Shown here: piece after piece, positions 23,962 through 47,415 of the stretch | How positions within the stretch are numbered: position 1 is the first letter of the stretch | Layout: every line of letters begins with the position of its first letter | Assembly: GCF_017309385.1 (NCBI RefSeq) | Contig: NZ_JAFJMJ010000002.1 | Location: 2,170,001-2,234,000, forward strand | Source: Amycolatopsis sp. 195334CR | Lineage (GTDB): Bacteria > Actinomycetota > Actinomycetes > Mycobacteriales > Pseudonocardiaceae | Reading direction: 5' to 3' | DNA: 64,000 nt | Notes under the pieces: generated by a model | Databases searched by the model: none | Told to the model about the DNA's origin: nothing | Seen by the model: the letters and a program-made list of their open reading frames with translations, nothing else | Program-made: the position numbers and the translations under genes

Positions 23962-23969
<8 letters not shown>
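22941..23969 (-). CDS. trpD: Anthranilate phosphoribosyltransferase
   Basis: A 342-residue TrpD that transfers phosphoribose from PRPP to anthranilate. Motifs: the PRPP site DTCGTGGDGLDTFNIST, KHGNRSVSSACGSADVLEELG, the anthranilate region FLYAPVFHPAFRHAAGPRRELGVRTVFNLLGPLCNP and GMDELS. The start ATG 23969 overlaps the trpG stop by 8 bases. All catalytic motifs are intact. Confidence 0.97.
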
Positions 23970-25994
<2,025 letters not shown>

Positions 25995-26060
25995 GGGCAC
26001 TCCAATCGGCGGAGCTACCCGCCGTCCAGGCTGTCGGGTCCGGAGGAAATCGTGCGCGGA

Positions 26061-29200: not shown

Positions 29201-32200
29201 ACGGACCTCTACGACCGGCGCACGATCGAACGCCTCACCGCACAGCTGACCGAAGTGCTCGCGGCGGTGGTCGAGGAACCGGACCGTCCCCTGTGGACGA
29301 TGCCGCTGACCACGGCGCCCCTCGCGAAGCCCGTGTTCGGGCTCTCGCTGCCGGCGACCCCGATCCTGTTCGCCGACCTCGCCCGCCGGTACCCCGACGA
29401 GGTCGCCGTGGTCGCCGGTGTGGTTGAACTGACCTACCGCGAACTGGCCGAACGGGCCGAGGCACTGGCCGATCGCCTCGCCGAAATCGGCGCCGGGCCG
29501 GAGGTCCCGGTGGCCGTCTGCCTGCGGCGCGGGATCGACCTGGTGGTGAGCGTGTTCGCGGTGTTCCAGGCCGGCGCGGTGCTGGTACCGGTCGACCCGG
29601 GGCACCCGCCCGACCGGATCGCCTTCGTACTGGCCGACTCCCACGCGCTGGTCGTGCTCACCGACGAGGCGGGCGCGGACCGGCTGCCCGGCGGCGCGCC
29701 GGTGCTGCGGGTCGACGGTGCCCAGCCGGTCGCGCCGAAGCGCCGTCAAGTCGTTCCCCAGCCGGACAACCTGGCCTACGTCGAGTACACCTCCGGCTCC
29801 ACCGGGGTGCCGAAGGCGGTGATGGTCGAACACCGGTCGCTGGTCAACAGCGCGGCGGACGCGCGTGTCCAGCTCGGCCTCGGGCCCGGCACGCGGATGC
29901 TGCTGCACTCACCGATCACCTTCGACTTCGGCCTCTGGCAGCTGCTGATGCCGCTGCTGTCCGGCGCGGCGGTCTGCCTGAGCGAGGCGGGGGAGCGGGA
30001 CGGCACATTGACCCTGGCCGAGCAGATTCGCCGCGACCGGATCACCGTGGCCTCGCTGACCCCGGCCCTGCTGTCCACAGTGGATCCCACCGCGGTGCCC
30101 GGGCTGGAACTGGTGACCGTCGGCGGCGAGCAGTGCCCGGCCGAACTGGCCAGGAAGTGGCTGGCGCACACCGCGTTCGGCAACTTCTACGGCCCGACCG
30201 AGGCCACCCTGGCCTCCACCGGCCTGATGCTGGCCAGGGGCGCCGATCCGGGCCCGGGTGCGGCGATGCCGATCGGCCCGCCCATCCAGGGCAACACCGG
30301 CTACGTGCTCGACCGGTACCTGCGCCCGGTGCCGCCGGGCGTCGACGGTGAGCTGTACATCGGCGGCATCGGGGTGAGCCGGGGTTACTTCGGCCGGCCC
30401 GGCCTGACCGCCGACCGCTTCCTGCCGGACCCGTTCGGCCCGCCCGGTTCGCGGGTGTACCGCACCGGTGATCTGGTCCGCCGCCTCGATGACGGCTCCC
30501 TGGAGTTCCGCGGCCGGATCGACCGGCAGGTCAAGGCCCGCGGGTTCAGGGTGGAGCCCGCCGAGATCGAGGCGATGCTGACCGGGCTGCCCGAGGTCAG
30601 CGAGGCGGCGGTGATCGCCGACGACGGTGGCCGCCTGCTCGCCTACGTGGTCGCGGAAACCCCGCTGGACGACGAACTGCTGCGGGCGGAAACCGCACGG
30701 GTGCTCCCGGCGTACATGGTCCCGGCCGCCTTCGTCACCCTCCCCGAACTTCCCCTGACGGTGAACGGAAAGCTCGACCGGGCGGCGCTCCCGGTGCCGG
30801 AGGCACGCTCCCGGTGCAGCTACCGCGCGCCCGGAACCGAAGCCGAGGCGCGTCTCGCGGAGATCTTCCGTGAGGTGCTCGACGTGGAACGCGTCGGCGT
30901 CGACGACAACTTCTTCGAACTCGGCGGCGACTCGATCCTGAGCATCCGGGTGGCCGCGGGCGCGAACCGCGCGGGTCTCCGGCTGACCTCGCGAGAGGTG
31001 TTCGAACGGCAGACTGTCGCCGAGTTGGCGGCCGGGCTGCCCGCCGAACCGAGCCCGGTGGTGCGCGACGACACGGCCGTGTCGGGTGCGGTGGAACTCA
31101 CCCCCATCCAGCGGTGGTTCCTCGATACCTTCACCGTCCACCCCGGACAGTTCACCATGTCCCGCTTCCTCGAACTCGCGCCGCGAGTCGACCGGGAGAC
31201 CGTGCGGACAGCCGTGCTCGCTCTCGTCGCCCACCACGACGCTCTGCGCCTCCGGTTCAGCCGGGAGCACGGGCAGTGGCTCCTCGCGACCGAACCCGGG
31301 GAGGTCTTCCGCGCCCATGATCTGTCCGAAGTGGATGACGCCGGTCAAGCGATGGACCGCCGGATGGCGGAGGCCCGCGCGGAACTCGACCTCGCCACCG
31401 GTCCGCCGTTCCTGGCCGATCACTTCGACCTGGGGGAGGGGCGGCCACCCCGGCTGCTCCTGACCGTGCACCACTTCGTCGTCGACGGGGTCTCCTGGCG
31501 CATCCTGCTGGAAGACCTCCGCACCGCGTGCGCGCGGCGGGACCTCGGCCCCAAGACGACCTCGTTCCAGCAGTGGTCGCGAATGCTCCGCGAGCAGGTG
31601 GAAGCGGGCGCGCTGGACGGCGAACTGCCCTACTGGACCCGGGTCCACGAGCGCACCGCACCGCCGCTCCCGCTGGACGGCCCCGGCGGGCAAGGGCGCA
31701 CCGAGACGATCACCGTCCGGCTGACCGCCGAGGAGACCGCGGCGCTGCTCCGCGAGGTGCCCGGCGTCTACCGCACGCAGGTCAACGACGTGCTGCTCAG
31801 CGCGCTGTCGGTGGCCGTGTCCGGCTGGACCGGCCACGATCGCGTGCTGCTGAACCTGGAGACCCACGGCCGGGAGCAACTGCCCGGCCAGGCCGATCCG
31901 TCCCGCACGGTCGGCTGGTTCACCAGCCAGTTCCCCCTGGTGCTCGACCTGCCGCGGGACCGGGACTGGCGCACCGTGCTGCGCTCGGTCAAGGAGCAGG
32001 TGCGCGAGGTCCCCGGCCGCGGGCAGAACTACGACGCGCTGCGGTACCTGTCCGGGGTGCTCGACGGCGGGCACCCCGCGGAGATCAACTTCAACTACCT
32101 CGGCCGGTTCGCCGACGCGGCCAACGAGCTGTACCTCCGCGAGTTGCCGGTCGTCGACGGCCCGCATCCCGAAGAAGCACGCCCGTTCCCGCTGGAAGTC

Positions 32201-35200
32201 ACCGGCGTCGTCGAGGCCGGGGAACTGGTGCTGCGCTGGGACCATTCACCCGCGACACTGGCCGGCGCGACCGTGCGTGGCCTGGCCGAACACACCACCG
32301 ACGCGCTGCGGGCGATCATCGCGCACTGCCGCGCCGACGGCGCCGGTGGTCGCACCCCGTCGGACTTCCCGCTGGCCGGGCTCGACCAGGCCGCGGTGGA
32401 CCGGCTGGCCGGTGACGGACGGTCGGTGGAGGACGTCTACCGGCTCACCCCGATGCAGGCCGGGATGCTGTTCCACACCCTGGCCGGCGGCGACGAGGTC
32501 TACACCTGCCGGACGAGCGTGACCTTCGACCGCGTGACCGATCCGGCCGCGTTCGCCGAAGCCTGGCAACTGGTGGCCGGTGCGGCCCCGGCGTTGCGCA
32601 GCACCGTGCACTGGGCCGGGCTGCCCGAACCCGTCCAGGTGGTGCACCGGCCCGCGCCACTGCCGGTGACCTGGCACGACTGGCGCGAACTCCCCGACGA
32701 GCGGGACCTCGTGCGACGCCTGCGTGAGGACGACCAAGCCGCCGGACTGGACCTCACCGGCGCACCGCCGACCCGGCTGGCGTTCGCCCGGCTGGCCGGC
32801 GACCGGGTGCACGTGCTGATGACCACGCACCACCTGTTCATCGACGGCTGGAGCCTGGCCAGGCTGCTCTCCGACGTGACCGCCGCGACGGAAGCGCTGA
32901 GCCGGGGAGAACAGCCGGACCTGCCACCGCAACGCCCGCTCCGGGACTACTGCGAATGGCTGGCGGCCCAGGACCACGATGCCGTCGCGGCCTACTGGGG
33001 CAAGGTGCTCGACGGTTTCCGCGAGCCGACCCCGTTGCCGTTCGACCGCCCGCCCGCGCCCGGACACCGCACCCGCCGGACCGGGACCAGGACGTTGCGG
33101 TGGAGCGAAGAGCGCACCACCGGACTCCACGACTTCGCCCGCCGCCACCGGCTCACCGCGCACACCGTGGTCCAGGCGGCGTGGGGCTTGCTGCTGTCCC
33201 GGCACGGTGGCACCGGCGAGGTGCTGTTCGGCACCACGGTCTCGGTGCGCCCGCCCGAACTCCCCGGCGCGGAGACGATCATCGGCCCGCTGATCAACAC
33301 GCTGCCGGTCCGCCTCACCGCGGATCCGGGGACGACCGTGCTGGACTGGCTCGCCGAGATCCAGGCCGGGCAGGCCGAGGCCCGTGAACACGCCTTCTAC
33401 CCGTTCTCCCGGCAGCAGGAGCTGACCGAGGTGCCGCCGGGCGTGAACCTGTTCGACAGCACCATCGCCTTCGAGAACCACGCGGAGAACCCGTTCGAGG
33501 TGGATTTCGACGGCGATGACGTGACCAACTTCGCGCTCGGGCTGGTCGTGTTGCCCGGTTCCTCGCTCCACTTCGAACTGTCCTACGACGAGGACCTGTT
33601 CGACGACGCCACCGCGGAACGGCTGGTCGCCCGCCTGGACACCGCACTGCGCTCGCTGACCAGCGCGCCGGAGCAGCCGCTGGCGGCCGTCCGGATCCTG
33701 CCCGACGCGGAACTGGACCTGCTCGGCCGCTGGGGCGCGCCACTGCCGCCCGCTCGGCAGCGAACCGCGGCCGAACTCTTCGCCAAGCAGGTGCGCCGCG
33801 ACCCGGACGCCGTGGCGGTTTCCGGCGGCACCGACCTCACCTACCGAGAGCTGGACGAGCGGGCGGGCAGGCTGGCGCACCGGCTCGGCGTGGGCCGCGA
33901 GTCCGTGGTCGGGGTTTGCCTCGACCGCGGTGCCGACGCGCTCACCGGCATGCTCGCGGTGGCCAAGGCCGGGGCCACCTGGCTGCCGATGGACCCGGCC
34001 CAGCCACCGGACCGGTTGCGGTGGCTGGCCGAGGACGCCGGTGCGGCCGTGGTGCTGACCGACCGGAATTCGGCGGGACGGTTCCCCCGCGAACTCCGGG
34101 TGGACGAGGTGCGGTGGGATCGCGGGCCGGTGCTAGACCGGCCGTCCCGGCTCGACGACGCCGCCTACGTCAGCTACACCTCGGGCACCACCGGGCGGCC
34201 GAAGGGCGTGGTGGTGCCGCACCGGGGACTGGCCGCACAGGTGTCGGCGCTGTCGAGATCTATCGGTACCGGGCCGGGAAGCCGGGTGCTGCAGTGGCTT
34301 TCCCCCGCCTTCGACGCGTCCATCCTCGAAGTGCTCGCCGCGTTGTTCACCGGCGCGACGCAGGTACCGGCGCCACCGGGCACCCCGGTGACCGGGCTCG
34401 CGGAGGTGGCGCGGGCGCACGGCGTGACCCACGCGATGATGCCGCCGTCGGTGCTGGCGGTGCTGCCGGAAACCGACTGGCCCGCCGAGGTCACCGTGCT
34501 GACCGGCGGCGAGGCGGTCCCGGCCGCGCTGGCCGCCCGGTGGTCGAAGGGGCGGCGGCTGGTCAATTCCTACGGCCCGACAGAGGTGACCATCAGCCCG
34601 ACGTTCGGCCGCCCACTGTCCGGAGTGGACGCCCCGCCGATCGGCCTGCCGATCGAGGGCGCCGTGGTCCACCTGCTGGACCCGGCCCTGCGCCCGGTCC
34701 CGGTGGGCGTGGTCGGCGAGATCTTCCTCGGTGGCGACGGCGTCGCCCGCGGGTACCACCGCGCGCCGGGCGCGACCGCGGCGAGCTTCGTGGCCGATCC
34801 GTTCGGTGAGCCGGGCGCCAGGATGTACCGCACCGGTGACCTGGCGCGGTGGTCCTCCGACGGCGAGCTGTACTTCGCCGGTCGCGTGGACGCGCAGGTG
34901 AAGGTGCGCGGGGCACGCGTCGAGCCGGGTGAGGTCGAAGCCGCGCTGCTGCGGCACCCCGAAGTGCGCGAGGCCGCGGTGACGGCGGCGGGCACCGGCG
35001 CCGAACGGCGGCTGGTGGCCTGGATCGTGCCGCGGCACCGGCCGGGGCCGACGGCGGGCGAACTCCGCGAGCACCTCGCGGCCATCCTGCCCGAGCAACT
35101 GCTGCCCGCCGAGTTCGGCGTGCTCGACCGGATGCCGCTGACCTCGCGAGGCAAGCTCGACCGGGCGAAGCTGGCCGGTACCGCGGTGGCACCCGGCGCT

Positions 35201-35461
35201 GACTACCTGGCGCCCCGCACGGACAGCGAACGGCTGGTGGCGCGGGCCTGGGCGACCGTGCTCGGCCGCGAGGAGATCGGCGTCCGGGAGAAGTTCTTCG
35301 AGGCGGGCGGGTCCTCGCTGACGCTGGTCCGGCTGGCCGGGGAGTTCGCCCGGCTTGGGCGCACCGAACTGCCGGTCGCGGTGCTGCTGGAGCACCCGAC
35401 CATCGAAGCCATGGCGAAGCGCGTCGGCCAGGCACGACCGGCCGCGGACCACGAACTGTGA
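26270..35461 (+). CDS. Non-ribosomal peptide synthetase, A-T-C-A-T-E-C-A-T
   Basis: A 3063-residue NRPS. Order: A1 (residues 1-500, YTSGSTGPPKG), T1 (GGDSIL near 530), C1 (about 587-1010; HHLLTDD near 712, the last Gly of HHxxxDG replaced by Asp), A2 (about 1035-1500; YTSGSTGVPKA), T2 (near 1549), E (about 1607-2045; HHFVVDGVSWR, LETHGRE, NFNYLGR), C2 (about 2057-2490; HHLFIDG), A3 (about 2499-2950; YTSGTTGRPKG) and T3 (GGSSL near 3012). It begins with A-T and no C, so it is an initiating protein or loads in trans. A1 lacks the usual pocket Asp235 (FATDLFF in place of FDxxxx), as in domains that activate acids without an alpha-amino group. My pocket readings are D-F-W-S-V-V-F-L-A for A2 and D-A-L-M-L-G-S-I-S for A3; I assign no substrates. 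E makes residue 2 D-configured. ATG 26270 has a GGGGGG-rich ribosome-binding site. There is no thioesterase. It heads the operon ending at 44888. Confidence 0.96.
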   Translation: MRSSAVLELFGSRVSRSPDAIAVRSGREAVSYGQLDLASARLAFRLAAGGAGPGKVVALHLDRGPELVIGLLAVLRTGAAFVPLDAAHPAGRLRWLLEDSGADQVVSNSPLPGGFGNCAVVPVVGPGTELLPERPIDPAAAAYLMYTSGSTGPPKGVVVEHRQLASVCAVWEELYRLRERPLEFVSVTGFATDLFFADFARSVLYGGTLILAPREAITDPARLLDLIEHTGGTALELLPSLAKALGQEAARRGGMPPLDLVSVGSEAWPSGDGRAFRALLSPETLLFNAYGTTETTVDSCVYRVASPDDWPGSVPIGRPVPGTTAYVLDEDLADAETGELYLGGEGVARGYHRRPGLTASRFLPDPFRPGKTMYRTGDLVRRQENGVLEHLGRVDDQLKIRGFRVEPGEIENVLVRHPAVDRAVVASPDEPGRRRLVAYFVPVEAEPPATAHLREFLAARLPEHLVPTAFVALERFPVLPGGKVDRRALPAPPRTVEGAEPRTESERVLAGIWREVLELDHVGIDDNFFDLGGDSILGIQVGALARARLGVVWPYRALFDRPTVAELAALPGEPATEVRVAEAGDRFPVSFAQRRLWFLHTHSPGAEYNLPKALRLRGELDVDALRSALTALVERHEILRTSFPVERDVPWQRIHPPAPADLELVDLDGEQGLDDLLHAEAEVVFDLAERPPVRLVLAKLGPRDHVLVLNLHHLLTDDWTSQILLAELAEHYRAAVTGEASRLPPLPARYADFARWQAEHLTPELADRQLSFWRTQLAGLRPFELPPDRPRPARRSAEGAAHRTELSPELTARLAEFARTRRVTLFTTLLAAVKLVFARLAGEPDVAVATVESGRERAEFADVAGFFVGTVVLRSTVDEEQSFDGLLARVRETVLAAMDNADVPFDRVVSALAPKRDLAALPLVRTAVVMQNAPVRHGVFPGLSADEVDLPMTAANIDLNTEFRLVGDRLHLVVSYRTDLYDRRTIERLTAQLTEVLAAVVEEPDRPLWTMPLTTAPLAKPVFGLSLPATPILFADLARRYPDEVAVVAGVVELTYRELAERAEALADRLAEIGAGPEVPVAVCLRRGIDLVVSVFAVFQAGAVLVPVDPGHPPDRIAFVLADSHALVVLTDEAGADRLPGGAPVLRVDGAQPVAPKRRQVVPQPDNLAYVEYTSGSTGVPKAVMVEHRSLVNSAADARVQLGLGPGTRMLLHSPITFDFGLWQLLMPLLSGAAVCLSEAGERDGTLTLAEQIRRDRITVASLTPALLSTVDPTAVPGLELVTVGGEQCPAELARKWLAHTAFGNFYGPTEATLASTGLMLARGADPGPGAAMPIGPPIQGNTGYVLDRYLRPVPPGVDGELYIGGIGVSRGYFGRPGLTADRFLPDPFGPPGSRVYRTGDLVRRLDDGSLEFRGRIDRQVKARGFRVEPAEIEAMLTGLPEVSEAAVIADDGGRLLAYVVAETPLDDELLRAETARVLPAYMVPAAFVTLPELPLTVNGKLDRAALPVPEARSRCSYRAPGTEAEARLAEIFREVLDVERVGVDDNFFELGGDSILSIRVAAGANRAGLRLTSREVFERQTVAELAAGLPAEPSPVVRDDTAVSGAVELTPIQRWFLDTFTVHPGQFTMSRFLELAPRVDRETVRTAVLALVAHHDALRLRFSREHGQWLLATEPGEVFRAHDLSEVDDAGQAMDRRMAEARAELDLATGPPFLADHFDLGEGRPPRLLLTVHHFVVDGVSWRILLEDLRTACARRDLGPKTTSFQQWSRMLREQVEAGALDGELPYWTRVHERTAPPLPLDGPGGQGRTETITVRLTAEETAALLREVPGVYRTQVNDVLLSALSVAVSGWTGHDRVLLNLETHGREQLPGQADPSRTVGWFTSQFPLVLDLPRDRDWRTVLRSVKEQVREVPGRGQNYDALRYLSGVLDGGHPAEINFNYLGRFADAANELYLRELPVVDGPHPEEARPFPLEVTGVVEAGELVLRWDHSPATLAGATVRGLAEHTTDALRAIIAHCRADGAGGRTPSDFPLAGLDQAAVDRLAGDGRSVEDVYRLTPMQAGMLFHTLAGGDEVYTCRTSVTFDRVTDPAAFAEAWQLVAGAAPALRSTVHWAGLPEPVQVVHRPAPLPVTWHDWRELPDERDLVRRLREDDQAAGLDLTGAPPTRLAFARLAGDRVHVLMTTHHLFIDGWSLARLLSDVTAATEALSRGEQPDLPPQRPLRDYCEWLAAQDHDAVAAYWGKVLDGFREPTPLPFDRPPAPGHRTRRTGTRTLRWSEERTTGLHDFARRHRLTAHTVVQAAWGLLLSRHGGTGEVLFGTTVSVRPPELPGAETIIGPLINTLPVRLTADPGTTVLDWLAEIQAGQAEAREHAFYPFSRQQELTEVPPGVNLFDSTIAFENHAENPFEVDFDGDDVTNFALGLVVLPGSSLHFELSYDEDLFDDATAERLVARLDTALRSLTSAPEQPLAAVRILPDAELDLLGRWGAPLPPARQRTAAELFAKQVRRDPDAVAVSGGTDLTYRELDERAGRLAHRLGVGRESVVGVCLDRGADALTGMLAVAKAGATWLPMDPAQPPDRLRWLAEDAGAAVVLTDRNSAGRFPRELRVDEVRWDRGPVLDRPSRLDDAAYVSYTSGTTGRPKGVVVPHRGLAAQVSALSRSIGTGPGSRVLQWLSPAFDASILEVLAALFTGATQVPAPPGTPVTGLAEVARAHGVTHAMMPPSVLAVLPETDWPAEVTVLTGGEAVPAALAARWSKGRRLVNSYGPTEVTISPTFGRPLSGVDAPPIGLPIEGAVVHLLDPALRPVPVGVVGEIFLGGDGVARGYHRAPGATAASFVADPFGEPGARMYRTGDLARWSSDGELYFAGRVDAQVKVRGARVEPGEVEAALLRHPEVREAAVTAAGTGAERRLVAWIVPRHRPGPTAGELREHLAAILPEQLLPAEFGVLDRMPLTSRGKLDRAKLAGTAVAPGADYLAPRTDSERLVARAWATVLGREEIGVREKFFEAGGSSLTLVRLAGEFARLGRTELPVAVLLEHPTIEAMAKRVGQARPAADHEL

Positions 35462-35469
35462 GGCAGGGG

Positions 35470-38400
35470 ATGAACGCGGAACCGATAGCGGTGATCGGCG
35501 CGGCCTTCGCGCTACCGGGTGGGCTGCGCACCTTCGACGCGTTGCACACCGCGCTGTCCGACGGCCTGGACGCGGTCCGCGCGCCGGGTGCCGACCGTGT
35601 GGTGCACGCCGGTGGCGAGTCCGATGTGGACTACCTGCGGCAGGGCTACCTGGACCGGGTGGACGTGTTCGACCACGGCTTCTTCGGCCTCTCCCTCGGC
35701 GAGAGCGAGCTGATGGACCCGCACCAGCGGCTGAGCCTGCAACTGGTGCACGAGGCGCTGGAGCACGCCGGGTACGCGCCGTCGGGACTGCGTGGTTCGG
35801 ACACCGCGGTGATCGTCAGCGCGCCCGACCCGGCCTACGCCCGGCTGTACCAGGGCGAGGACTCCCGGCAGGTGCTGGGCTCGCTCCCGGCGGCCGTCGC
35901 GGCCAGGATCGCCTACCTCCTCGACCTCACCGGACCGGCGCTGGTGGTGGACACCGCGTGCAGCGGCAGCCTGAACGCGGTCGCGCTGGCGGTGGCGCAC
36001 CTGCGGGCCGGCCGGACGGAACTGGCGGTCTGCGGTGGGCTCAGCGTCGATTCGGTACTCACCCCCGCACGTGGTCACGAGCCCTTGCCGGGTGTCGGGT
36101 CCGGCGCCGGGGTGTGCCGTCCGTTCGACGCGGGTGCCGACGGCACGGTCGGCGGCGAGGGCGGCGGTTTTGTCGTGCTGAAGCGGCTTTCCGCGGCACT
36201 GTCCGATCAGGACAACGTGCTCGCCGTGCTCCGCGGGGTGGCGGTCAACCACAACGGCGCCCGCGCGGTCGGCATGAGCGCGCCGAGCCCGTCCGCCCAG
36301 GCCGAGGTGATCCGCGCGGCACGGCACGAAGCGGGCATCGCCGCCGAGACGATCGGTTACGTCGAAGCCCACGGCTCGGCCACGCCGCTCGGTGACGTGA
36401 TCGAGGTGACCGGGCTGGCCGAGGCGTTTCCCGGCGGGTCGCCGCCGATCGGCTCGGTGAAGAGCAACTTCGGCCACCTCGACCACGCGGCGGGTATCGC
36501 CGGGCTGCTCAAGGTGATCTGCGCGCTGCGGTACGGGACGCGGTATCCGACCGTCCACTTCGAACGGTCGAACCCGGCGTTCCCGGCACCGATCGTGGTG
36601 GAGACCGAACCGGTGGCCTGGACGGAGGAGCCGAGGCGGGCGGGGCTCAGCTCGTTCGGCATCACCGGGACGAACGTGCACGTGGTGGTGGAGCAGGCTC
36701 CGACGGCCACGGCCGTGCCGGACGACGGTGAACCGCGGCTGGTGACCGTGTCGGCGAAAACCCCGGCAGCGCTGACCGAGTACCTGCGGTCGCTGGCGGA
36801 GTTCACCGAGAACACCTCGCACTCGCTGGCGCAGATCGCGTCGGTGCTGAACGCGGGCCGCGATGACCACCCGTACCGGCGGGCCTTCGTGGCGCGGGAC
36901 GTCGGCGAACTCGCCGGGGCACTGAGACAAGCTGTTCCGCCGGAGCGGCCGTCCGCCGAGGTGCCGGTGGTGCTGCTGTTCTCCGGTGACGGGGAGGACT
37001 GGGCGCGGCAGTTCGAGCTGTACCAGCTGGTGCGCTCGCTCGGCCTGGACGACACGAGAATGGTCGGCAGCGGCACCGGGAACCTGGCGGTCCGGCTGGC
37101 GCGGGGCCGCATCACCCCGGCCGAGGCCGAAGCGGCCGCCGCGGACCTGACCCCGGGCGTCGACCCCGACGGCCTGCGGCGAGCCGTGCGCGGGTTCGTC
37201 TCCGACGGCGCGGTGCTGCTGGAGATGGGGAAGGACGGGATCCTCGCCCGGGAGATCGCCGAACTGGAACCGGACCTGCCGATCGTCCGGCTGCTCGCCG
37301 ACGGCGGCCCGCTCGCGGCGCTGGCCGAACTGTACGAACTCGGGGTGGACCTCGCCTGGCCTGCCGGGGACCGGCCGCCACGGATCGAGGTGCCGACCTA
37401 CCCGTTCGAACCGGTGTCGTGCTGGGTTCCTCGGCCTCAACCCACCGTCCCCGCACCACCACCCGTCGCCGTGGTCCAGCCGCCGCCCGCCGACGACCTC
37501 GAGCAAGCCGTCGCGGCGGTGTGGGCGCGCGTGCTCAAGGCGGAGGGCATCGGCCCCGACTCGGACTACTTCGAACTCGGCGGCACCTCGATCGCCGGGA
37601 TCAGCCTGATCCGGGAGTTCGAGAACGAACTGCAGGCCCGGCTGAGCTTCACCGAGTTGTACGAGCACCGCACGGTTCGCGCCCTCGCCGCCCTCATCGC
37701 GCAGCGCCGGACGGACGGGCCGGTGGACTGGTCCATCCCGGTCCTGCCCCGCGGCGGCCCGCTGCCGATCTCCATCGGCCAGGCGCAGCTGTGGTACCTC
37801 GACGTCCTGGACCCGGGCACCCCGCTCTACAACATCCCGCTCGACCTCCGCTACCGCGGCCCGCTGGACCGGGAGGCGATGCGCGGTGCCTTCGCCGACC
37901 TGTCGGCCAGGCACGAGATCATGCGCACCCGGATCGTGGCCGACGAGAACGGCCGTCCCCACGCGCTGGCCGACCTCCCGGGCGTGGACCTCCGGATCGT
38001 CGAACTGCCCTCGGAGGCGGCGCTCGCCGAAGCAGCACACCGGGAAGGCGCCCGGCCGTTCGACCTGGCCGCCGGGCCGCTGGTGCGGGCCGTGCTCTTC
38101 GCCATCGGCGAGCACGACCACCAACTGCTGTGCACCTGGCACCACATCGCCTTCGACGGCTGGTCGCCCCGGATCTTCCTGCGCGACCTGAGCGAGTTCT
38201 ACACCGCGCGGGTGACCGGCGCCGAACCCGTGCTCCCCGAACTCCCCGTGCAGTACCCGGACTTCGCCGGCTGGCAGCGCACCTGGCTCGACGACGAACG
38301 CCGCGAGCGCGCGCTGGTGTTCTGGCGGCGGCAACTGGCGGACCTGCCCCGCACCGAACTGCCGCTCGACCACCCCCGGCCACCGGTCGAAACCCACGCG

Positions 38401-40629
38401 GGCAAGCTCCTGGGCTTCACGCTGGAGTACGACGTGGCCGAGCGCCTGCGCGAGCTGAGCGCGTCGGCGGGGGTGACCACCTTCGTCACCATGCTCGCGG
38501 TGTTCGACGTCCTGCTCTACCGGTGGGCCGGGCACGAGGACGTGGTGGTCGGCGCGGCCACCTCCGGCCGGATCAACCCGGCCACCCACGAACTCATCGG
38601 CTACTTCAACAACGTGGTGCCCTTCCGCACCCGCCTGGACGGCAACCCCGGTTTCCGCGACCTCCTGCTCCGCGTGGCCGGCACGGTGGCCGGTGTGCTC
38701 GACCACGAAGAGCTGCCGTTCGCCGACATCGTGGCCGATCTGCGCCCGGAGCGGGATCCGTCCCGCCACCCGCTGTTCACCGTGTCCTACACCCACCAGA
38801 ACACCGAAACCCACCCGGCCGAGGTCCCCGGCATGGTGGTCAGCACCCCGGAGGAACGCGGGTACGGCATCGTCGACGGCACGTCGAAGCTCGACCTGAC
38901 CCTCGGCCTCGCCGACCAGGACGGCGGCCCGATGGGCTGCTACCTCGAGTACGCCACCGCTCTGTTCGACGAAGCCACCATGGTGCGGCTCGCCGCGTTG
39001 TTCCGGCAGATCGTGGCCGAGGTGCTGGACCACCCGGACCGGCCGATCGGCGAACTGGGCCGCGGTGCCGAGAACGACGAACCCCGAGGAGATTCGATGA
39101 GCACGCCCACCGACACCGAGCGGGTGCTCCACGGCATCTGGACCGAGCTGCTCGGCCGGGACTCCATCGGCCCGGACGAGGACTTCTTCCTGATCGGCGG
39201 TGACTCGATCCTGAGCGTCGGCGTCGCCGCGCGGGCGGCGCGAGCCGGGATCACCGTCACCGCGCAGGACATGCTGAAGTACCCGACCCTGCGGAAACTG
39301 GCTGAGATCGCCGCACCGGCACCGGCCCCCGAACCGGCCACCGCCGACAGCGGGCCGATCCCGCTCACCCCGCTCATGCTCGACATGCTGGAAGCGGGCG
39401 GGCAGCCGGGGGCCTCCGACTTCGTCGTCTCGGAACTGCTGGAGGTCGCCCCGGGCACCGGGCTCGACCGGCTGCGTGGCGCGCTGGCCGAGCTGGTCCG
39501 GTGGCACGAGCCACTGCGGTACCGGTACCGCCGGAACCGCCTCGGCTGGCGGATCGAACCGGCCCCGGCGGTGTCCACTTCGGACATCCTGGACAGCAAG
39601 GTGCTCCCGCCGCTGGACGAGGCCGCGGAGCTGGCGCTGCTGACCACCGACGCCGCCGAACTCAGCGCCGAGCTCGACATCACGGCCGGGCGGATGGTGC
39701 GGGGCCGCTTCTACGACCGGGGCGCCAGCCGCCCCGGGCTGATGTTGCTGGTGCTGCACCACTTCGCCCACGACGAGATCTCCACCGTCCCGTTGCTCGA
39801 CGACCTGAACGGCGCGCTGACCGGGAAGAACGACGCCACCGCACCGCGCCCGCCAGCGCTGCGGAACTGGTCCTGCCTGCTCACCGGGCTGGCGCAGAGC
39901 GACGAACTGGCCGGCGAACTCGACTACTGGACGAGCGTGCTGCGCCAGGGCGCGGGCGAGGTGCTGCCCGAGAGTTCCGGCAACGCCCCGGGTGTGCTCA
40001 AGCGAGTGGTGGAGGGCGAACGGCTCGCCAAGCTGCTCTACGAACCGGGGCCGACCAGCCGCGAGGCGTCGTTGTGCGCGGTGGCCTGCGGCTGGTCGCG
40101 CTGGCGCGGTGAGCCGGGTGCGTTCCTGTCCACCATCGGCCACGGCTACCCGAACCCGTTCCGCCCGGAGGACCGCTCGCGCTCGCTGGGCTGGTTCACC
40201 AACGGCTTCCCGATGTACCTGCCGGTCGACCCGGCGGCCGACGCCGCGGCCGCGCTGCCCGAGATCGCCGACGTGCGGCGCTCGGTGCCCAACGACGGCG
40301 TCGGCTACGGCGTGCTGCGGCGGCTCAGCCCGGCCACCCCGGACGTGCGCGAATTCCGTTCGCTGGCCGAGCCGACGGTGATGGTGGAGCACCGGACCAG
40401 CGGGGTGAACCCGATCCGGCTCGGCGGCCCGCTGTCGATCCGGTCGGTGCCGATCCCGCTGCCGATGCCCTCCCTGCTGGCGTTGCGGCCGATCCTGTTC
40501 TCCACCTCGGTGCGCGACGGGCGGGCCGAGATCGAACTCGTGCACAGCGAGCGGTTCGGCACGAAGGAGATGGAGGTGCTCGCCGACCGGGTGGCCGAGG
40601 CGTTCGCCGAACTGGACGCCGTCCGGTGA
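35470..40629 (+). CDS. Hybrid PKS/NRPS: KS-[degenerate AT]-T-C-T-[E-like]
   Basis: A 1719-residue protein (ATG 35470 with GAGG upstream; a GTG at 35458 overlapping the previous stop is possible). KS: residues 5-410, complete, with Cys164 in DTACSGS, His in VEAHGSATPLGD and His in KSNFGHLDHAAG. Residues 420-650 replace an AT: VVLLFSGDGEDW and a terminal YPFEPVSCWV linker remain, but the GHSxGE elbow reads GSGTGN (Ser lost) and about half the domain is missing. T1: FELGGTSI near 705. C: WHHIAFDGWSP near 890. T2: FLIGGDSIL near 1243. The C-terminal 420 residues are epimerase-like (GWFTNGFPMYL), but HHxxxDG reads HHFAHDE and EGHGRE reads IGHGYP, so the catalytic Glu is missing. There is no A, AT, KR or TE. 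Both T domains must be loaded in trans or by chain transfer. The KAS III-like gene overlaps the stop by 4 bases. Confidence 0.93.
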   Translation: MNAEPIAVIGAAFALPGGLRTFDALHTALSDGLDAVRAPGADRVVHAGGESDVDYLRQGYLDRVDVFDHGFFGLSLGESELMDPHQRLSLQLVHEALEHAGYAPSGLRGSDTAVIVSAPDPAYARLYQGEDSRQVLGSLPAAVAARIAYLLDLTGPALVVDTACSGSLNAVALAVAHLRAGRTELAVCGGLSVDSVLTPARGHEPLPGVGSGAGVCRPFDAGADGTVGGEGGGFVVLKRLSAALSDQDNVLAVLRGVAVNHNGARAVGMSAPSPSAQAEVIRAARHEAGIAAETIGYVEAHGSATPLGDVIEVTGLAEAFPGGSPPIGSVKSNFGHLDHAAGIAGLLKVICALRYGTRYPTVHFERSNPAFPAPIVVETEPVAWTEEPRRAGLSSFGITGTNVHVVVEQAPTATAVPDDGEPRLVTVSAKTPAALTEYLRSLAEFTENTSHSLAQIASVLNAGRDDHPYRRAFVARDVGELAGALRQAVPPERPSAEVPVVLLFSGDGEDWARQFELYQLVRSLGLDDTRMVGSGTGNLAVRLARGRITPAEAEAAAADLTPGVDPDGLRRAVRGFVSDGAVLLEMGKDGILAREIAELEPDLPIVRLLADGGPLAALAELYELGVDLAWPAGDRPPRIEVPTYPFEPVSCWVPRPQPTVPAPPPVAVVQPPPADDLEQAVAAVWARVLKAEGIGPDSDYFELGGTSIAGISLIREFENELQARLSFTELYEHRTVRALAALIAQRRTDGPVDWSIPVLPRGGPLPISIGQAQLWYLDVLDPGTPLYNIPLDLRYRGPLDREAMRGAFADLSARHEIMRTRIVADENGRPHALADLPGVDLRIVELPSEAALAEAAHREGARPFDLAAGPLVRAVLFAIGEHDHQLLCTWHHIAFDGWSPRIFLRDLSEFYTARVTGAEPVLPELPVQYPDFAGWQRTWLDDERRERALVFWRRQLADLPRTELPLDHPRPPVETHAGKLLGFTLEYDVAERLRELSASAGVTTFVTMLAVFDVLLYRWAGHEDVVVGAATSGRINPATHELIGYFNNVVPFRTRLDGNPGFRDLLLRVAGTVAGVLDHEELPFADIVADLRPERDPSRHPLFTVSYTHQNTETHPAEVPGMVVSTPEERGYGIVDGTSKLDLTLGLADQDGGPMGCYLEYATALFDEATMVRLAALFRQIVAEVLDHPDRPIGELGRGAENDEPRGDSMSTPTDTERVLHGIWTELLGRDSIGPDEDFFLIGGDSILSVGVAARAARAGITVTAQDMLKYPTLRKLAEIAAPAPAPEPATADSGPIPLTPLMLDMLEAGGQPGASDFVVSELLEVAPGTGLDRLRGALAELVRWHEPLRYRYRRNRLGWRIEPAPAVSTSDILDSKVLPPLDEAAELALLTTDAAELSAELDITAGRMVRGRFYDRGASRPGLMLLVLHHFAHDEISTVPLLDDLNGALTGKNDATAPRPPALRNWSCLLTGLAQSDELAGELDYWTSVLRQGAGEVLPESSGNAPGVLKRVVEGERLAKLLYEPGPTSREASLCAVACGWSRWRGEPGAFLSTIGHGYPNPFRPEDRSRSLGWFTNGFPMYLPVDPAADAAAALPEIADVRRSVPNDGVGYGVLRRLSPATPDVREFRSLAEPTVMVEHRTSGVNPIRLGGPLSIRSVPIPLPMPSLLALRPILFSTSVRDGRAEIELVHSERFGTKEMEVLADRVAEAFAELDAVR

Positions 40630-41624
40630 CCGCCCCGCTGGCGGTCCGCTCGATCGCGGACTTCCGGCCGGAGCGGGTGGTGAAGGTCCCCGACCTGCCG
40701 GAGCTGGCCGAGCTGACCGACGCCGAACGACAGGCATGCCTGGCCCTGGGCATCGAGCGGGTCCACGCGGACCCGGACCACGACGCGGTGGACCTGGCCG
40801 CGGGCGCGGCGCGGAAGCTGCTCGCCGAAACCGGAGCTTCACCCGGCGCGCTGCTGGTGATCGGCTCCCGTGCGCCGGGGCGGCTGATGAGTTCGGAGGC
40901 CACGCGGTTGCAGGAACTGCTGGGCCTGCCCGACGCGCTCACCTTCTCCGTCGGCGGGCTCGGCTGCGTGTCGATCACCCCGGCGCTGCTCACCGCGCGC
41001 GGACTGCTGGCCGCCGACCCCGGTCTGGGGGAGGTCCTCGTGGTGCACGGCAGCAAGCCACCGACCCCGCGGCGGTACCGGCACCCGGTCACCGTCAGCG
41101 GTGACGGCGGGCAGGCGGTGCTGCTCGCCAGGACGGGCCCGGTGCGCGTGCTCGACATCGCGCAGGCCACCAACGGCGCCTACTGGGATCTGTACACAGT
41201 GGACTTCCGGGACCGGCCCACGGCGGACTGGCGCGAGGAGTGCGCCGACACGCGGCGGTATTCGTTCACGCTGGCGATGGAGGGCCGGGCGCGGTTGCGC
41301 GAGCTGTACCGCGAACTGCTCGCCAGGAACGGCATGACCACCGGCGACGTGACCTGCCACCTGAGTCAGAACCTGTCGGCCGGGGCGTTCCGGTTCACCG
41401 AAGAAGCCCTCGGCGTCCGGCTCGCGGCCGCGTGTGCCGGGAACCTCGCGGTCAACGGGCACCTTGGGCCGAACGACGTCCTGTTCAACCTGTCCGGCGC
41501 CATCGCGGGCGGTGAGCTGCCGCCGGGTTCGCGCGCGGTGGTGTTCAACGCCAGCCCGGTCGCGGCGTGGAGCCTGCTGCTGGTCGAACACGCCGGTGGC
41601 GAAGCGGAAACGCACTACCTGTAG
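40626..41624 (+). CDS. 3-oxoacyl-ACP synthase III-like protein, possible transacylase
   Basis: A 332-residue thiolase-fold protein of the KAS III type. The probable active Cys is in VGGLGCVSITPAL near residue 118. His is in CHLSQNLS (equivalent to the FabH HQAN region), and NGHLGPNDVLFNLSGAI replaces the FabH GNTSAASIP motif, so the decarboxylation machinery is altered. KAS III-like proteins with such changes (ChlB3 and CerJ, established cases) move acyl groups between carriers instead of elongating. Its GTG overlaps the stop of the AT-deficient PKS, and the free ACP follows 10 bp later. I infer that it may deliver the ACP-bound acyl unit to the PKS carrier. A tetronate-type ligation role, known for KAS III partners of FkbH proteins, is the main alternative. 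Confidence 0.8.
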   Translation: MTAPLAVRSIADFRPERVVKVPDLPELAELTDAERQACLALGIERVHADPDHDAVDLAAGAARKLLAETGASPGALLVIGSRAPGRLMSSEATRLQELLGLPDALTFSVGGLGCVSITPALLTARGLLAADPGLGEVLVVHGSKPPTPRRYRHPVTVSGDGGQAVLLARTGPVRVLDIAQATNGAYWDLYTVDFRDRPTADWREECADTRRYSFTLAMEGRARLRELYRELLARNGMTTGDVTCHLSQNLSAGAFRFTEEALGVRLAAACAGNLAVNGHLGPNDVLFNLSGAIAGGELPPGSRAVVFNASPVAAWSLLLVEHAGGEAETHYL

Positions 41625-41634
41625 GAGGGAACGG

Positions 41635-41889
41635 ATGCGGACCGAGGTGACCGACGCGGAGGTGCGCGCCCCGCTGCTGGAGTTCGTCACGTCGCTGGTC
41701 GGCGTGGCGCTGGGGCCGGACGAGGACTACTTCGAGCAGGGACTGGTCAGCTCGCTCGTGGCGCTGGAACTGGTGACCTTCGTGGAGCACCGGTTCGGGC
41801 TCACCGTCGACGTGGAAGACCTGGACCTCGACCACTTCCGCACGGTGAACCGGCTGACCGCGTTCGTGCTCGCGAAGCTGGCGGGCTGA
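41635..41889 (+). CDS. Free-standing acyl carrier protein (FkbJ-type)
   Basis: An 84-residue ACP. The 4'-phosphopantetheine Ser lies in FEQGLVSSLVALELVTFVEHRFG. The GLVxSL pattern in place of DSL is characteristic of ACPs partnered with FkbH proteins. ATG 41635 follows GGAGGGA. It sits between the KAS III-like gene and the acyl-CoA dehydrogenase, 1 bp from the latter's GTG. Predicted role: it carries glyceryl, then oxidised to hydroxymalonyl, as a thioester. Confidence 0.92.
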   Translation: MRTEVTDAEVRAPLLEFVTSLVGVALGPDEDYFEQGLVSSLVALELVTFVEHRFGLTVDVEDLDLDHFRTVNRLTAFVLAKLAG

Positions 41890-41890
41890 G

Positions 41891-43048
41891 GTGGATCCGG
41901 CCGAATTCGACGCCGCGAGCTGGGACGCGCAGGGCGAACTGCCCGCCGAGGTGCGCCGGGCGGTGGCCGGTTCCGGCTGGTTCGGCACGGACCTCCCGGC
42001 CGAGTACGGCGGCCGCGGCGGTACGCAAGCGGAGCTGGGGGAGTTGTGCGCCGAGGTCGGAGGCGCGTGTGGTTCGGTGCGGGCGCTGATCACCGTGCAG
42101 GGCATGGTCGCCGCGGCCATCCACCGCTGGGGTACCGCGGCGCAGCGGGCGGACTGGCTGCCCGCACTGGTCTCGGGTGACCAGCTCGCCGGGTTCGCCG
42201 CGACCGAACCGGGAGCGGGAACCGAACTGTCCGCTGTGGACACCCGCGTCGAGCGGTCCGGGAGCGGGTTCACCGTGACGGGTGAGAAGCGCTGGATCAC
42301 CTTCGGCCGGGCGGCGACGGTGTTCCTGGTGCTGGGCAGGCTCGACGGCAAGCCGGTGACCGTGCTGGTCGGGGCCGACCGCGCCGGGGTCAGCGTGGAG
42401 CCGGTGCACGGGCAGCTCGGCCTGCGGGCCGCGATGATCGCGCACGTGCGCTTCGACGGTGTCCGCGTACCGCAGCGGAACCTGGTGGCACCGCCCGGAT
42501 TCGGACTGTCCCATGTGGTCGCCACCGCACTGGACCACGGCCGGTTCACCGTCGCCTGGGGCTGTGCCGGGATGGCCGCGGCCTGCGTGGCCGACGCCGC
42601 CGGGCACACCGCGCAGCGGCGGCAGGGCGGGGTGCCGCTCGCCGAGCACCAGCTCGTGCGGTCGATGCTGGCCCGGATGTCGGTGGCCACCACCGCCGCG
42701 CGCGAACTGTGCCGGAGCGCGGCGAACGCCCGTGACGCCCGGGAGCCGGGCGCGGTCGCGGCCACGGTGATGGCGAAGTACGCCGCCGCGCGGGCCGCCG
42801 CCTCGGCGAGCCAGGACGCCGTGCAACTGCTCGGGTCCGCCGGGTGCGCGCCGGACAGCCGCGCCGGCCGGTTCTTCCGCGACGCCAAGGTCATGCAGAT
42901 CATCGAGGGCTCGGACCAGGTCGCCGAGCTGCACATCGCCGAACACCTGCTGCGGCAGCACAGAACGGGGGAAAATGGGCACGCCGGTGAAATGCCTGGT
43001 CTGGGATCTCGACGACACGCTGTGGCGGGGAGTGGTGCTGGAGGGTGA
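41891..43048 (+). CDS. Acyl-CoA dehydrogenase-like flavoprotein (FkbI-type)
   Basis: A 385-residue acyl-CoA dehydrogenase. Motifs: LPAEYGGRGGTQAELGELCAEVGG, the FAATEPGAGTELSAVDTRVE substrate/FAD signature, GEKRWITFGRAA, and the C-terminal LLGSAGCAPDSRAGRFFRDAKVMQIIEGSDQVAELHIAEHLL. In methoxymalonyl-ACP pathways the FkbI-type member performs a second oxidation step on the ACP-bound three-carbon unit, and the same is predicted here. GTG 41891 lies 1 bp after the ACP stop. Its 3' end overlaps the FkbH-like gene by 74 bp, so the last 24 residues share sequence with the next gene's start. Confidence 0.9.
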   Translation: MDPAEFDAASWDAQGELPAEVRRAVAGSGWFGTDLPAEYGGRGGTQAELGELCAEVGGACGSVRALITVQGMVAAAIHRWGTAAQRADWLPALVSGDQLAGFAATEPGAGTELSAVDTRVERSGSGFTVTGEKRWITFGRAATVFLVLGRLDGKPVTVLVGADRAGVSVEPVHGQLGLRAAMIAHVRFDGVRVPQRNLVAPPGFGLSHVVATALDHGRFTVAWGCAGMAAACVADAAGHTAQRRQGGVPLAEHQLVRSMLARMSVATTAARELCRSAANARDAREPGAVAATVMAKYAAARAAASASQDAVQLLGSAGCAPDSRAGRFFRDAKVMQIIEGSDQVAELHIAEHLLRQHRTGENGHAGEMPGLGSRRHAVAGSGAGG

Positions 43049-44003
43049 CCGCGCGGAACCGGTCCCCGAAGCCGTGCGCACGCTGCGGGAGCTGGACGAA
43101 CGCGGGATCCTGCACGCCACCGCCAGCCGCGGTGATCACGCCACCGCGGTCGCGCACCTGGAGCGGCTGGGCCTGAAAGACCTGTTCACCGTGGTGGAAG
43201 TGGGGTGGGGCGCCAAATCCGGCGCGGTCCGGCGGGTGGCGGAACTGCTCAACCTCGGCCTGGACAGCTTCGCCTTCATCGACAACGACCCGGTCGAACG
43301 CGCCGAGGTGGTCGCGGCCCTGCCCCAGGTCCGCGCCTACGCCGCCGAGGACGCGGGGAAGCTCCCCGGGCTGACGGAGTTCCAGCCGGTGACCCGGACC
43401 GCGGAATCGGCCCAGCGCCGCCGGTTGTACCAGGTGGAAGCCGGGCGGCGGGCGGCGGAGGAAGCACACGACGGCACCGCGCCGGAGTTCCTCGCTTCGC
43501 TGGGGCTGACCATGACCATCCGCCGCGCCACCGCCGGTGACCTGGCCAGGGCGCACGAACTCACCGTGCGCACCCACCAGCTCAACACCACCGGGCTGAC
43601 CTTCGACGAGCGCGAACTGGGGCGGCTGGCCGAGTCCCCGGACCACGAGGTGCTGGTCGCCGAGCTGACCGACCGGTTCGGCCCGTACGGGGTGATCGGG
43701 CTGGCCCTGACCGAGAGCGACCCCGCGAACACCACGATCAAACTGCTGCTCACCTCGTGCCGGGTGGCTTCCCGCGGCGCGGGCGCGGCGCTGATCGAGC
43801 AGGTGGTGCGGCGGTCGCTGGCCGCCGGGCGGCGGCCGCGGGCGGAGTTCGTGCCCACCGAGGTCAACCGGATCATGCTGGTCACCCTGCGGTTCAGCGG
43901 GTTCGAGGTGGAGCACGACGCGGGCGACCGGCTGCTGCTGGCGCACCGCGGTGAACCGGTCTCGCGGTCCGGGCACATTCGCGTACTGGCCGAGACCCAC
44001 TGA
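42975..44003 (+). CDS. FkbH-like glyceryl-ACP synthase (HAD-superfamily)
   Basis: A 342-residue FkbH-family protein. The N-terminal HAD domain has motif I VWDLDDTLWRGVVLEGD and motif IV FIDNDPVERAEV. A C-terminal acyltransferase-like domain begins at about residue 180 (TIRRATAGDLARAHELTVRTHQLNTTG, then GVIGLAL and SCRVASRGAGAALIEQ). FkbH proteins dephosphorylate 1,3-bisphosphoglycerate and load D-glycerate onto an ACP. ATG 42975 with GGGGGAAA upstream lies inside the end of the dehydrogenase gene. Together with the ACP and two dehydrogenases it defines the hydroxymalonyl-ACP cassette. Confidence 0.95.
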   Translation: MGTPVKCLVWDLDDTLWRGVVLEGDRAEPVPEAVRTLRELDERGILHATASRGDHATAVAHLERLGLKDLFTVVEVGWGAKSGAVRRVAELLNLGLDSFAFIDNDPVERAEVVAALPQVRAYAAEDAGKLPGLTEFQPVTRTAESAQRRRLYQVEAGRRAAEEAHDGTAPEFLASLGLTMTIRRATAGDLARAHELTVRTHQLNTTGLTFDERELGRLAESPDHEVLVAELTDRFGPYGVIGLALTESDPANTTIKLLLTSCRVASRGAGAALIEQVVRRSLAAGRRPRAEFVPTEVNRIMLVTLRFSGFEVEHDAGDRLLLAHRGEPVSRSGHIRVLAETH

Positions 44004-44021: not shown

Positions 44022-44888
44022 ATGGGGAACTACGCGGTGCTCGGCGGCGGCACCATGGGCTGCGGGGTCGCGCAGTGCCTGGCCGCGGTGGGGCAGGTGG
44101 TGGTGTACGAACCGGCGGCCGCCGCGCGCGGCGCCGGACCGGGCCGGGTGCGCGACGGCGTGCGCCTGGCCCGGATGCTGCGCCGCACCGGCCCCGCACC
44201 GGACGAGGTGCTCGACCGCATCCGCTGGACCGATCGCTGGGAACAGCTGGACGCGCCCGAGTTCGTCGTCGAATGCGTGCCGGAACGCCTGCCGCTGAAG
44301 GAAAAGGTGCTGCGCGCGGCCGAGGAGCACAGCGCGCCGGGCGCGGTGTTCGCCTCGTGCACCTCGGCCATCCCGGTCGACCACCTGGCCGGCTGGCTGG
44401 GCGATCCCGGCCGGATGATCGGCACCCACTTCATGAACCCGGCCCCGCTGAAGGACGCGGTGGAGGTGGCACGCGGTCCGCGCACCACCGAGGAAACCCT
44501 GCGCCGCACCACGGAACTGCTCACGCGCATCGGCAAGAAGGCCATCGTGGTCGGGGACGCGCCGGGTTTCGTGTCCAACCGGGTGCTGATGCTCACCGTC
44601 AACGAAGCGGCCACCGTGCTGCACGAGGGCACCGCCGACGCGGCCACCGTGGACGAGGTGTTCCGCGAGTGCTTCGGGCACCGCATGGGCCCGCTGCGCA
44701 CCGCCGACCTGATCGGCCTGGACACCATCGTGGACACCCTGCTGGTGCTGCTGGAGTTCACCGGGGACCCGCGCTTCCGGCCGAGCCCGCTGCTCGCGGA
44801 GCTGGTCGCGGCCGGTCACCTCGGCGAGAAAACCGGCCGCGGATTCCACCGGCCCCGGGTTCATGAGGGGGATTCGGCGCCAGCTTAA
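44022..44888 (+). CDS. 3-hydroxyacyl-CoA dehydrogenase-like protein (FkbK-type)
   Basis: A 288-residue NAD-dependent dehydrogenase. The Rossmann motif is LGGGTMGCGVAQCLA at the N-terminus, then EFVVECVPERLPLKEKVLR, ASCTSAIPVDHLAG, the catalytic region RMIGTHFMNPAPL and VGDAPGFVSNRVLMLTVNEA. The C-terminal helical domain ends LGEKTGRGFHRP. In the glycerate-to-hydroxymalonyl route this class oxidises the ACP-bound primary alcohol. It starts 18 bp after the FkbH-like gene. No SAM-dependent O-methyltransferase follows it, unlike methoxymalonyl loci. Confidence 0.93.
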   Translation: MGNYAVLGGGTMGCGVAQCLAAVGQVVVYEPAAAARGAGPGRVRDGVRLARMLRRTGPAPDEVLDRIRWTDRWEQLDAPEFVVECVPERLPLKEKVLRAAEEHSAPGAVFASCTSAIPVDHLAGWLGDPGRMIGTHFMNPAPLKDAVEVARGPRTTEETLRRTTELLTRIGKKAIVVGDAPGFVSNRVLMLTVNEAATVLHEGTADAATVDEVFRECFGHRMGPLRTADLIGLDTIVDTLLVLLEFTGDPRFRPSPLLAELVAAGHLGEKTGRGFHRPRVHEGDSAPA

Positions 44889-44968: not shown

Positions 44969-46567
<1,599 letters not shown>

Positions 46568-46695: not shown

Positions 46696-46795
46696 AACCC
46701 GCTGCGGTGCGAGTTGGTGGCTCACGGCAAGCGGCTCCGCCGCTTGGTGAAACACCACCCGGGGCACCGCGCCCCATGAGTACGGAGGTGTGCGG

Positions 46796-47329
46796 ATGAC
46801 CGAATCGATGACCGCGCCCGGGGTGACGGCCGACGCCGTCACCGTCGGGGCGGGGGAGTTCCGGGCGCTGATGTCCGGGTTCCCCACCGGCGTGAGCATC
46901 GTGACCACCCGGGATCTCGACGACCGGCCGTGGGGCATGACCTGCTCGGCGATCTGCAGCGTCTCGGTGGACCCGCCGACCCTGCTGGTCTGCCTCCGCC
47001 GGGAGAGCCCGACGCTGGCGGCGCTGCTGCGCCGGGCCACCTTCACGGTGAACCTGGTCCACGAGCACGGCCGCCCGGCGGCGGAACTGTTCGCCTCGGG
47101 GGCCGCCGACCGGTTCGACCGGGTCCGCTGGACCGCCGAGCCGGGCGCCGGCGGGCCCCACCTGGTCGACGACGCGCACGCGATCGCCGACTGCGCGGTC
47201 ACCCGGCACGAGGTCGTCGGCGACCACAGCGTCGTGTTCGGCCAGGTCTTCCGGCTCAGTCCCCAGGCACCGGTGCCGCCGCGCCCGCTGCTCTACGGCA
47301 GACGCCAGTTCGCCAGCTGGCCCGGCTGA
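46796..47329 (+). CDS. Flavin reductase (FMN-binding split barrel)
   Basis: A 177-residue reductase supplying reduced flavin. Motifs: [63 protein letters not shown] and the [10 protein letters not shown] dimer strand. Family members use NAD(P)H to make free FADH2 or FMNH2 for two-component halogenases and monooxygenases. ATG 46796 is selected because GGAGG (46784-46788) is ideally placed. Its position next to the tryptophan halogenase makes it the probable partner. Confidence 0.93.
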
Positions 47330-47345
47330 AGCCGGAACCCTTCTT

Positions 47346-47382
47346 CGGCGGCCCCGGCGCCGGTTCGGTGCCGGGGCCGCCG
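47346..47382 (+). terminator. Strong GC hairpin between flavin reductase and NRPS
   Basis: CGGCGGCCCCGGC at 47346-47358 pairs perfectly with GCCGGGGCCGCCG at 47370-47382, followed by CTTTTCC. It starts 17 bp after the flavin reductase stop and ends 34 bp before the NRPS GTG, so it is a terminator or an attenuating 5' leader structure. Confidence 0.75.
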
Positions 47383-47415
47383 CTTTTCCGCGAGTCCGAA
47401 TGTTGGGGGAACGCA

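Follow-up and report, generated by a model that had tools for sequence, protein, structure and literature searches.

We analyzed a window of 64,000 nucleotides (nt) from Amycolatopsis sp. 195334CR (contig NZ_JAFJMJ010000002.1, positions 2,170,001 to 2,234,000), which contains a hybrid polyketide synthase-nonribosomal peptide synthetase (PKS-NRPS) protein whose PKS module has a remnant, here called ψAT, in place of an acyltransferase (AT) domain. The remnant lies behind a ketosynthase (KS) and the KS-AT linker domain (LD), and is followed by a carrier (T) domain, a condensation (C) domain, a second T domain and an epimerization-like (E-like) domain. The first-pass annotation had seen a KAS III-like gene, a free acyl carrier protein (ACP) gene and a hydroxymalonyl cassette directly downstream, and this is what we find, in the order KAS III-like, ACP, acyl-CoA dehydrogenase-like, FkbH and hydroxyacyl dehydrogenase-like (coordinates in the table are those of the window).

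Table. Features of the AT-less module and its surroundings (A, adenylation domain; ORF, open reading frame)
Feature	Position	Strand	Evidence
Upstream NRPS, putative feeder of KS	26270..35461	+	3 A, 3 T, 3 C-type stretches (Pfam)
Hybrid PKS-NRPS protein, 1723 aa, KS-LD-ψAT-T-C-T-E-like	35458..40629	+	single ORF without stops
KS, Cys-His-His intact	35479..36696	+	DTACSGS 35950, VEAHGS 36361, SNFGHLD 36463
LD	36739..36960	+	PF22621/PF22336, residues 428-492; model
ψAT: AT α/β core lacking the nucleophile Ser, the Arg/His region and the ferredoxin-like subdomain	36961..37359	+	alignment, model
Post-AT linker, ending in YPFEPVSCWV	37360..37428	+	alignment
T domain, putative hydroxymalonyl acceptor	37504..37698	+	PF00550, residues 683-747
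C domain	37774..39057	+	PF00668, residues 773-1200
Second T and C-terminal condensation/epimerization-like domain	39109..40626	+	second PF00550 and PF00668 stretches; residues 1218-1283; weak TIGR01720
Putative KAS III-like acyltransferase, Cys114-His279-Asp284	40626..41624	+	alignments, model, structure comparison
Free-standing ACP	41635..41889	+	PF00550
Acyl-CoA dehydrogenase-like protein, hydroxymalonyl cassette	41891..43048	+	profile match
FkbH domain protein	42975..44003	+	TIGR01686, 252.3 bits, cut-off 146.65
3-Hydroxyacyl-CoA dehydrogenase-like protein	44022..44888	+	profile match

The KS had been called complete, and its DTACSGS, VEAHGS and SNFGHLD triad motifs are indeed all intact in the same ORF; the Cys, His and His are invariant in all 72 relatives that aligned out of 86. 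The catalytic-His motif of these family KSs is mostly ECHG rather than EAHG (Cys in 62, Ala in 7 and Gly in 3 of 72), and the window KS has the Ala form. Behind the KS, the landmarks previously described were recovered, namely the FSGDGEDW start (nt 36979), a serine elbow reading GSGTGN (nt 37066) and the YPFEPVSCWV linker (nt 37399). When aligned with 12 ATs from this genome, ψAT shows two deletions: one separates the F-S-G-x-G start from the helix preceding the elbow, and the other, between the helix after the elbow and the last α/β unit, takes out the Arg of RSR and the His of ASHS/AFHS. The segment FVSDGAVLLEMGKDGILAREIAELEPDLPIVRLL...LYELGVDLAW aligns to that last AT α/β unit and continues into the post-AT linker; thus, of the loss claimed for the middle and C-terminal parts of the AT, that of the arginine and histidine region stands, while the C-terminal half is retained in part. 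The structural model likewise retains the AT α/β core between the linker domains. At the nucleophile Ser position of GHSxG, 38 of 39 aligned rows have Gly and one has Ala, and PF00698 matched nowhere in the 1723-aa protein. Judged from its residues ψAT is catalytically dead, so that the module must be loaded in trans. A complete AT with an alternative nucleophile is ruled out by the missing small subdomain (model and alignment), and a frameshift or assembly error by the single stop-free ORF and the equal arrangement in relatives.

The remnant is not a one-off. A search that scored 7989 candidates gave at least 791 matches, including ordinary PKSs because the query had included LD and T; the best 120 of the 791 were listed and the first 100 used for remnant alignment. 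From 87 of these 100 best-listed relatives a remnant of 225-294 residues (LD to linker) could be cut and aligned, the other 13 failing the length or motif cut, and the exact GSGxGN motif was present in 67 of the 87. Listed relatives came from Amycolatopsis, Umezawaea, Kutzneria, Saccharothrix, Actinokineospora, Nonomuraea, Plantactinospora and Streptomyces. For 13 hand-chosen close pairs, the ratio of nonsynonymous to synonymous substitution rates was 0.16-0.49 in the AT part, compared to 0.13-0.38 in the KS and 0.12-0.33 in the KAS III-like protein, which is not what free decay of the AT would give. ψAT is therefore common to a lineage and under purifying selection; the earlier description of a decayed, non-catalytic remnant was right as to catalysis and misleading as to decay, the last α/β unit also being kept.

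The module had further been held to differ from classical trans-AT lineages, and its KS does appear to fall outside the trans-AT clades that we sampled (480 KSs found, 60 used in a first tree and 20 in each of the quick and careful trees). In the quick tree, with two FabF-type outgroups (one a 254-residue piece), the AT-less group stood beside 12 cis-AT KSs (support 96), at least six of them from NRPS-PKS hybrids. In the careful tree, with one outgroup and five long or partial rows removed, it formed a separate clade (98/88) with no clear sister group. The approximately unbiased (AU) test rejected joining the ψAT family alone to the trans-AT KSs (P = 1.2e-5), but not joining the whole AT-less group to them (P = 0.127). 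Three family members labelled cis (P0033, P0035 and P0048), on which our AT profile gave weak matches, were all placed in the family clade and were left out of the quick and careful trees; P0300, a protein with an AT match, was left out of the trees. A cis-AT ancestry is nonetheless likely, judged from the AT remnant itself, the KS giving no proof.

Condensing KAS III enzymes (FabH) use a Cys-His-Asn catalytic set, which the KAS III-like protein does not show when set against two FabH-type proteins encoded in this genome (the filter missed two others): the position of its His279 holds the Asn of their SGNTS, and their PHQAN His is without counterpart. Its Cys114, His279 and Asp284 are instead invariant in all 120 listed relatives (the best 120 of 368), a triad shared with the KSIII-like acyltransferases ChlB3 (7EQI) and CerJ (3T5Y/3S3L); NatS (7VYU) is a further KSIII-like acyltransferase. 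In a phmmer alignment they fall on Cys113, His296 and Asp301 of ChlB3, the triad reported for that enzyme and also for CerJ (PMC9573744, in excerpt). The model of the protein (pLDDT 93) scored 34.5 with NatS, 33.6 with ChlB3 (24% identity) and 33.5 with DpsC in VIA-align. A second KAS III subfamily (38-42% identity; GHLGAMD motif) was seen within FkbH cassettes at L059 (8867-9817) and L060 (8797-9753), with about 41% identity at these two loci; in the latter it adjoins an AT-less KS-T-reductase protein with an even shorter remnant lacking the elbow motif, which suggests a use of the loader beyond this single family of modules.

The KAS III-like protein proved to be a conserved partner of ψAT, matching in 35 of 38 loci picked by ψAT alone. 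Its gene starts 0-87 nt past the ψAT stop codon in 27 loci, overlaps in 5 and lies elsewhere in 3 (L023, L025 and L047); the three loci where it was not found (L013, L022 and L030) are all at contig ends. Among 297 genomes of the window's family, which come from a collection overlapping that of the 38 loci so that strains may be shared, ψAT was found in 22 at E ≤ 1e-25 and in 19 at E ≤ 1e-50. The KAS III-like protein at 51% identity or more was found in 21, namely those 19, in all of which its gene is about 6 kb or less from ψAT, and two others: G067, which has a divergent ψAT (34.6%) and a full cassette, and G102. Of the three genomes with ψAT matches between the two cut-offs (G098, G180 and G209), G098 has ψAT at a contig end and a KAS III-like protein (48%) on a different contig; G103 has a KAS III-like protein at 47% and no ψAT match. 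Fisher's exact test for the co-occurrence gave P = 5e-28, which is overstated, the cut-offs having been chosen after the lists were seen and the genomes being related. L057 (9969-10937) has a KAS III-like gene at 57% identity with no ψAT or cassette match within 20 kb, and L061 and L062 each encode a KS protein (open frames 1400 and 1256 aa long) that has an AT remnant, with no KAS III-like or cassette match in 14 kb. No AT was found with our own profile, which recovers ATs including proteins outside its building set, in the window, the 38 ψAT loci or six further loci; PF00698 likewise had no place inside the window coordinates, a search covering the window and not the cluster beyond.

The set expected for hydroxymalonyl-ACP (FkbH, ACP, hydroxyacyl dehydrogenase and acyl-CoA dehydrogenase) is complete at the locus, and the gene calls between 40626 and 47329 include no O-methyltransferase, so the cassette looks like a hydroxymalonyl-ACP rather than a methoxymalonyl type. 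Judging from these families, FkbH would charge the free ACP with a glycerate unit, which the two dehydrogenases would oxidize to hydroxymalonyl-ACP. The KAS III-like protein would then take the unit on Cys114, activated by the His279-Asp284 pair seen in the alignments, and pass it to the first T domain; the intact KS would carry out the condensation, adding one hydroxymalonyl (glycolate-type) unit to the peptide delivered by the upstream NRPS. As a conserved pseudo-enzyme, ψAT would, together with LD and the post-AT linker, keep the KS-to-T geometry, and the KAS III-like protein or its ACP may dock on it as well. We consider it probable that the module extends an NRPS-bound peptide by one hydroxymalonyl unit in this way, without an AT, with a KAS III-like loader and ψAT as scaffold.

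Several results weigh against this proposal. Foldseek places FabH (2x3e) first and ChlB3 sixth, and DpsC is level with ChlB3 in VIA-align, so that loader and condensing enzyme are not separable by fold alone; the residues decide. L013 shows 1.2 kb behind the ψAT ORF without a KAS III-like gene, G102 has the KAS III-like gene with no ψAT or cassette within 20 kb, and the weak ψATs of G180 and G209 had neither KAS III-like gene nor cassette in the 14 kb examined. The KAS III-like gene and all four cassette genes occurred together in just 15 of the 38 loci, which extended up to 10 kb per side and in some cases ended at a contig edge (ACP in 28, acyl-CoA dehydrogenase in 28, FkbH in 20 and hydroxyacyl dehydrogenase in 17). 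Finally, the genome has 44 AT matches elsewhere, so a remote AT could load the module.

Compatible with a KAS III-like loader is the possibility, which we regard as real though the lesser one, that ψAT is a mere spacer and that the loader recognizes the T domain only. The related cassette at L060, whose remnant lacks the elbow motif, speaks for a spacer, while the exact GSGxGN in most aligned remnants, of no use to AT catalysis, speaks against it. It appears unlikely that a FabD-type AT encoded at a distance, be it the FabD of fatty-acid synthesis or an AT of another cluster, transfers malonyl or hydroxymalonyl to the T domain and docks on ψAT in the manner of trans-AT systems. Besides the 44 matches, this reading can draw on leinamycin biosynthesis, where a region C-terminal of the KS has been proposed as an AT-docking domain (PMC6164871, in excerpt), but an ACP-bound extender requires an extra protein-protein contact (PMC4207774, in excerpt). 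Also against it are the lack of an AT by profile at any of the loci, the adjacency of the KAS III-like gene in most of them, and the apparent position of the KS outside the trans-AT sample.

A trio of FkbH, ACP and FabH-like protein is known also in tetronate clusters, where the FabH-like proteins are condensing or releasing enzymes. That the KAS III-like protein is such an enzyme and not a loader, as this trio, its KAS III/thiolase fold and FabH as first Foldseek match might suggest, we think improbable, given that it conserves a His-Asp of acyltransferase type and not the His and Asn of FabH, that the KS retains its own Cys-His-His, and that the C-T-E-like unit and the further NRPS gene behind the module leave no obvious release point.

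Each half of the proposed loader and scaffold system has precedent, in KSIII-like acyltransferases and in AT-less modules. ChlB3 transfers 6-methylsalicylate from ACP to ACP and CerJ transfers malonyl onto a sugar (PMC9573744, in excerpt), whereas the cargo proposed here would serve a modular PKS as extender unit. SfaN of sanglifehrin biosynthesis, described as an acyltransferase for storing and shuttling thioesters and as similar to the KAS III-like AfcL (PMC12186527, in excerpt), is a further parallel by description; a title cited in that paper deals with a starter unit, which may be what SfaN handles. Zwittermicin synthesis uses a complete catalytic AT in cis, ZmaA-AT, for hydroxymalonyl-ACP (PMC4207774, in excerpt), in contrast to the gutted AT here. 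Classical trans-AT PKSs resemble this system in having trans-loaded KS modules without functional AT, but differ in that here no discrete AT was found in the window or loci, the KS appears to lie outside the sampled clades and the α/β AT core is kept. Three other comparisons were dropped: foxicin, where the FkbH-like domain lies in a PKS with cis-ATs (PMC5318452, in excerpt), AfcL, a KAS III-like peptide-transfer enzyme rather than an extender loader (PMC12186527, in excerpt), and MypJ of mycoplanecin, a proposed condensing enzyme (PMC10817943, in excerpt). Neither a KAS III-like hydroxymalonyl loader nor the combination of a dedicated KSIII-type extender loader with a conserved pseudo-AT came up in the open-access papers searched, outside of which most subscription papers lie, making this weak evidence of absence.

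In the window protein no A domain was found by Pfam between C and the second T (39057-39109), so charging of that T would have to come in trans; the nearest of the listed relatives, P0002 (83% identity over the region searched), has an A domain there, and P0035 and P0051 likewise have none. Downstream, a frame at 46930-64000 (+; 5690 aa from its first start) overlaps the flavin reductase gene, extends past the window and is an NRPS with six C, four A and four T stretches in 49201-63999. Going by domain content, the PKS module sits mid-way in a large peptide assembly line. A tryptophan-pathway set (18825-26000, minus strand), recognized by family as class II DAHP synthase and TrpA, B, C, D, G and E, with no TrpF match seen there, lies near a Trp-halogenase-family gene (44990-46567) and the flavin reductase gene (46790-47329). 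A product containing halotryptophan is possible.

Extender-unit loading is generally regarded as the work of the AT superfamily, in cis or in trans. We suggest tentatively, with somewhat less than even confidence, that in a lineage of actinobacterial NRPS-PKS modules this work has passed to a dedicated loader with KAS III fold and Cys-His-Asp triad, which acts on an ACP-bound extender, and that the gutted AT has been kept as its dock. If so, modular PKSs would have answered the loss of an AT in a separate way, and the pairing of a thiolase-fold loader with an AT that is dead but conserved would make a second, independent route to trans-loading. It would also be a compact means of placing a unit that carries a hydroxyl, and would allow the non-catalytic role of the AT scaffold to be tested naturally. 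The two genes would further provide a signature by which clusters of this kind could be found; their AT-less modules may easily be mislabelled.
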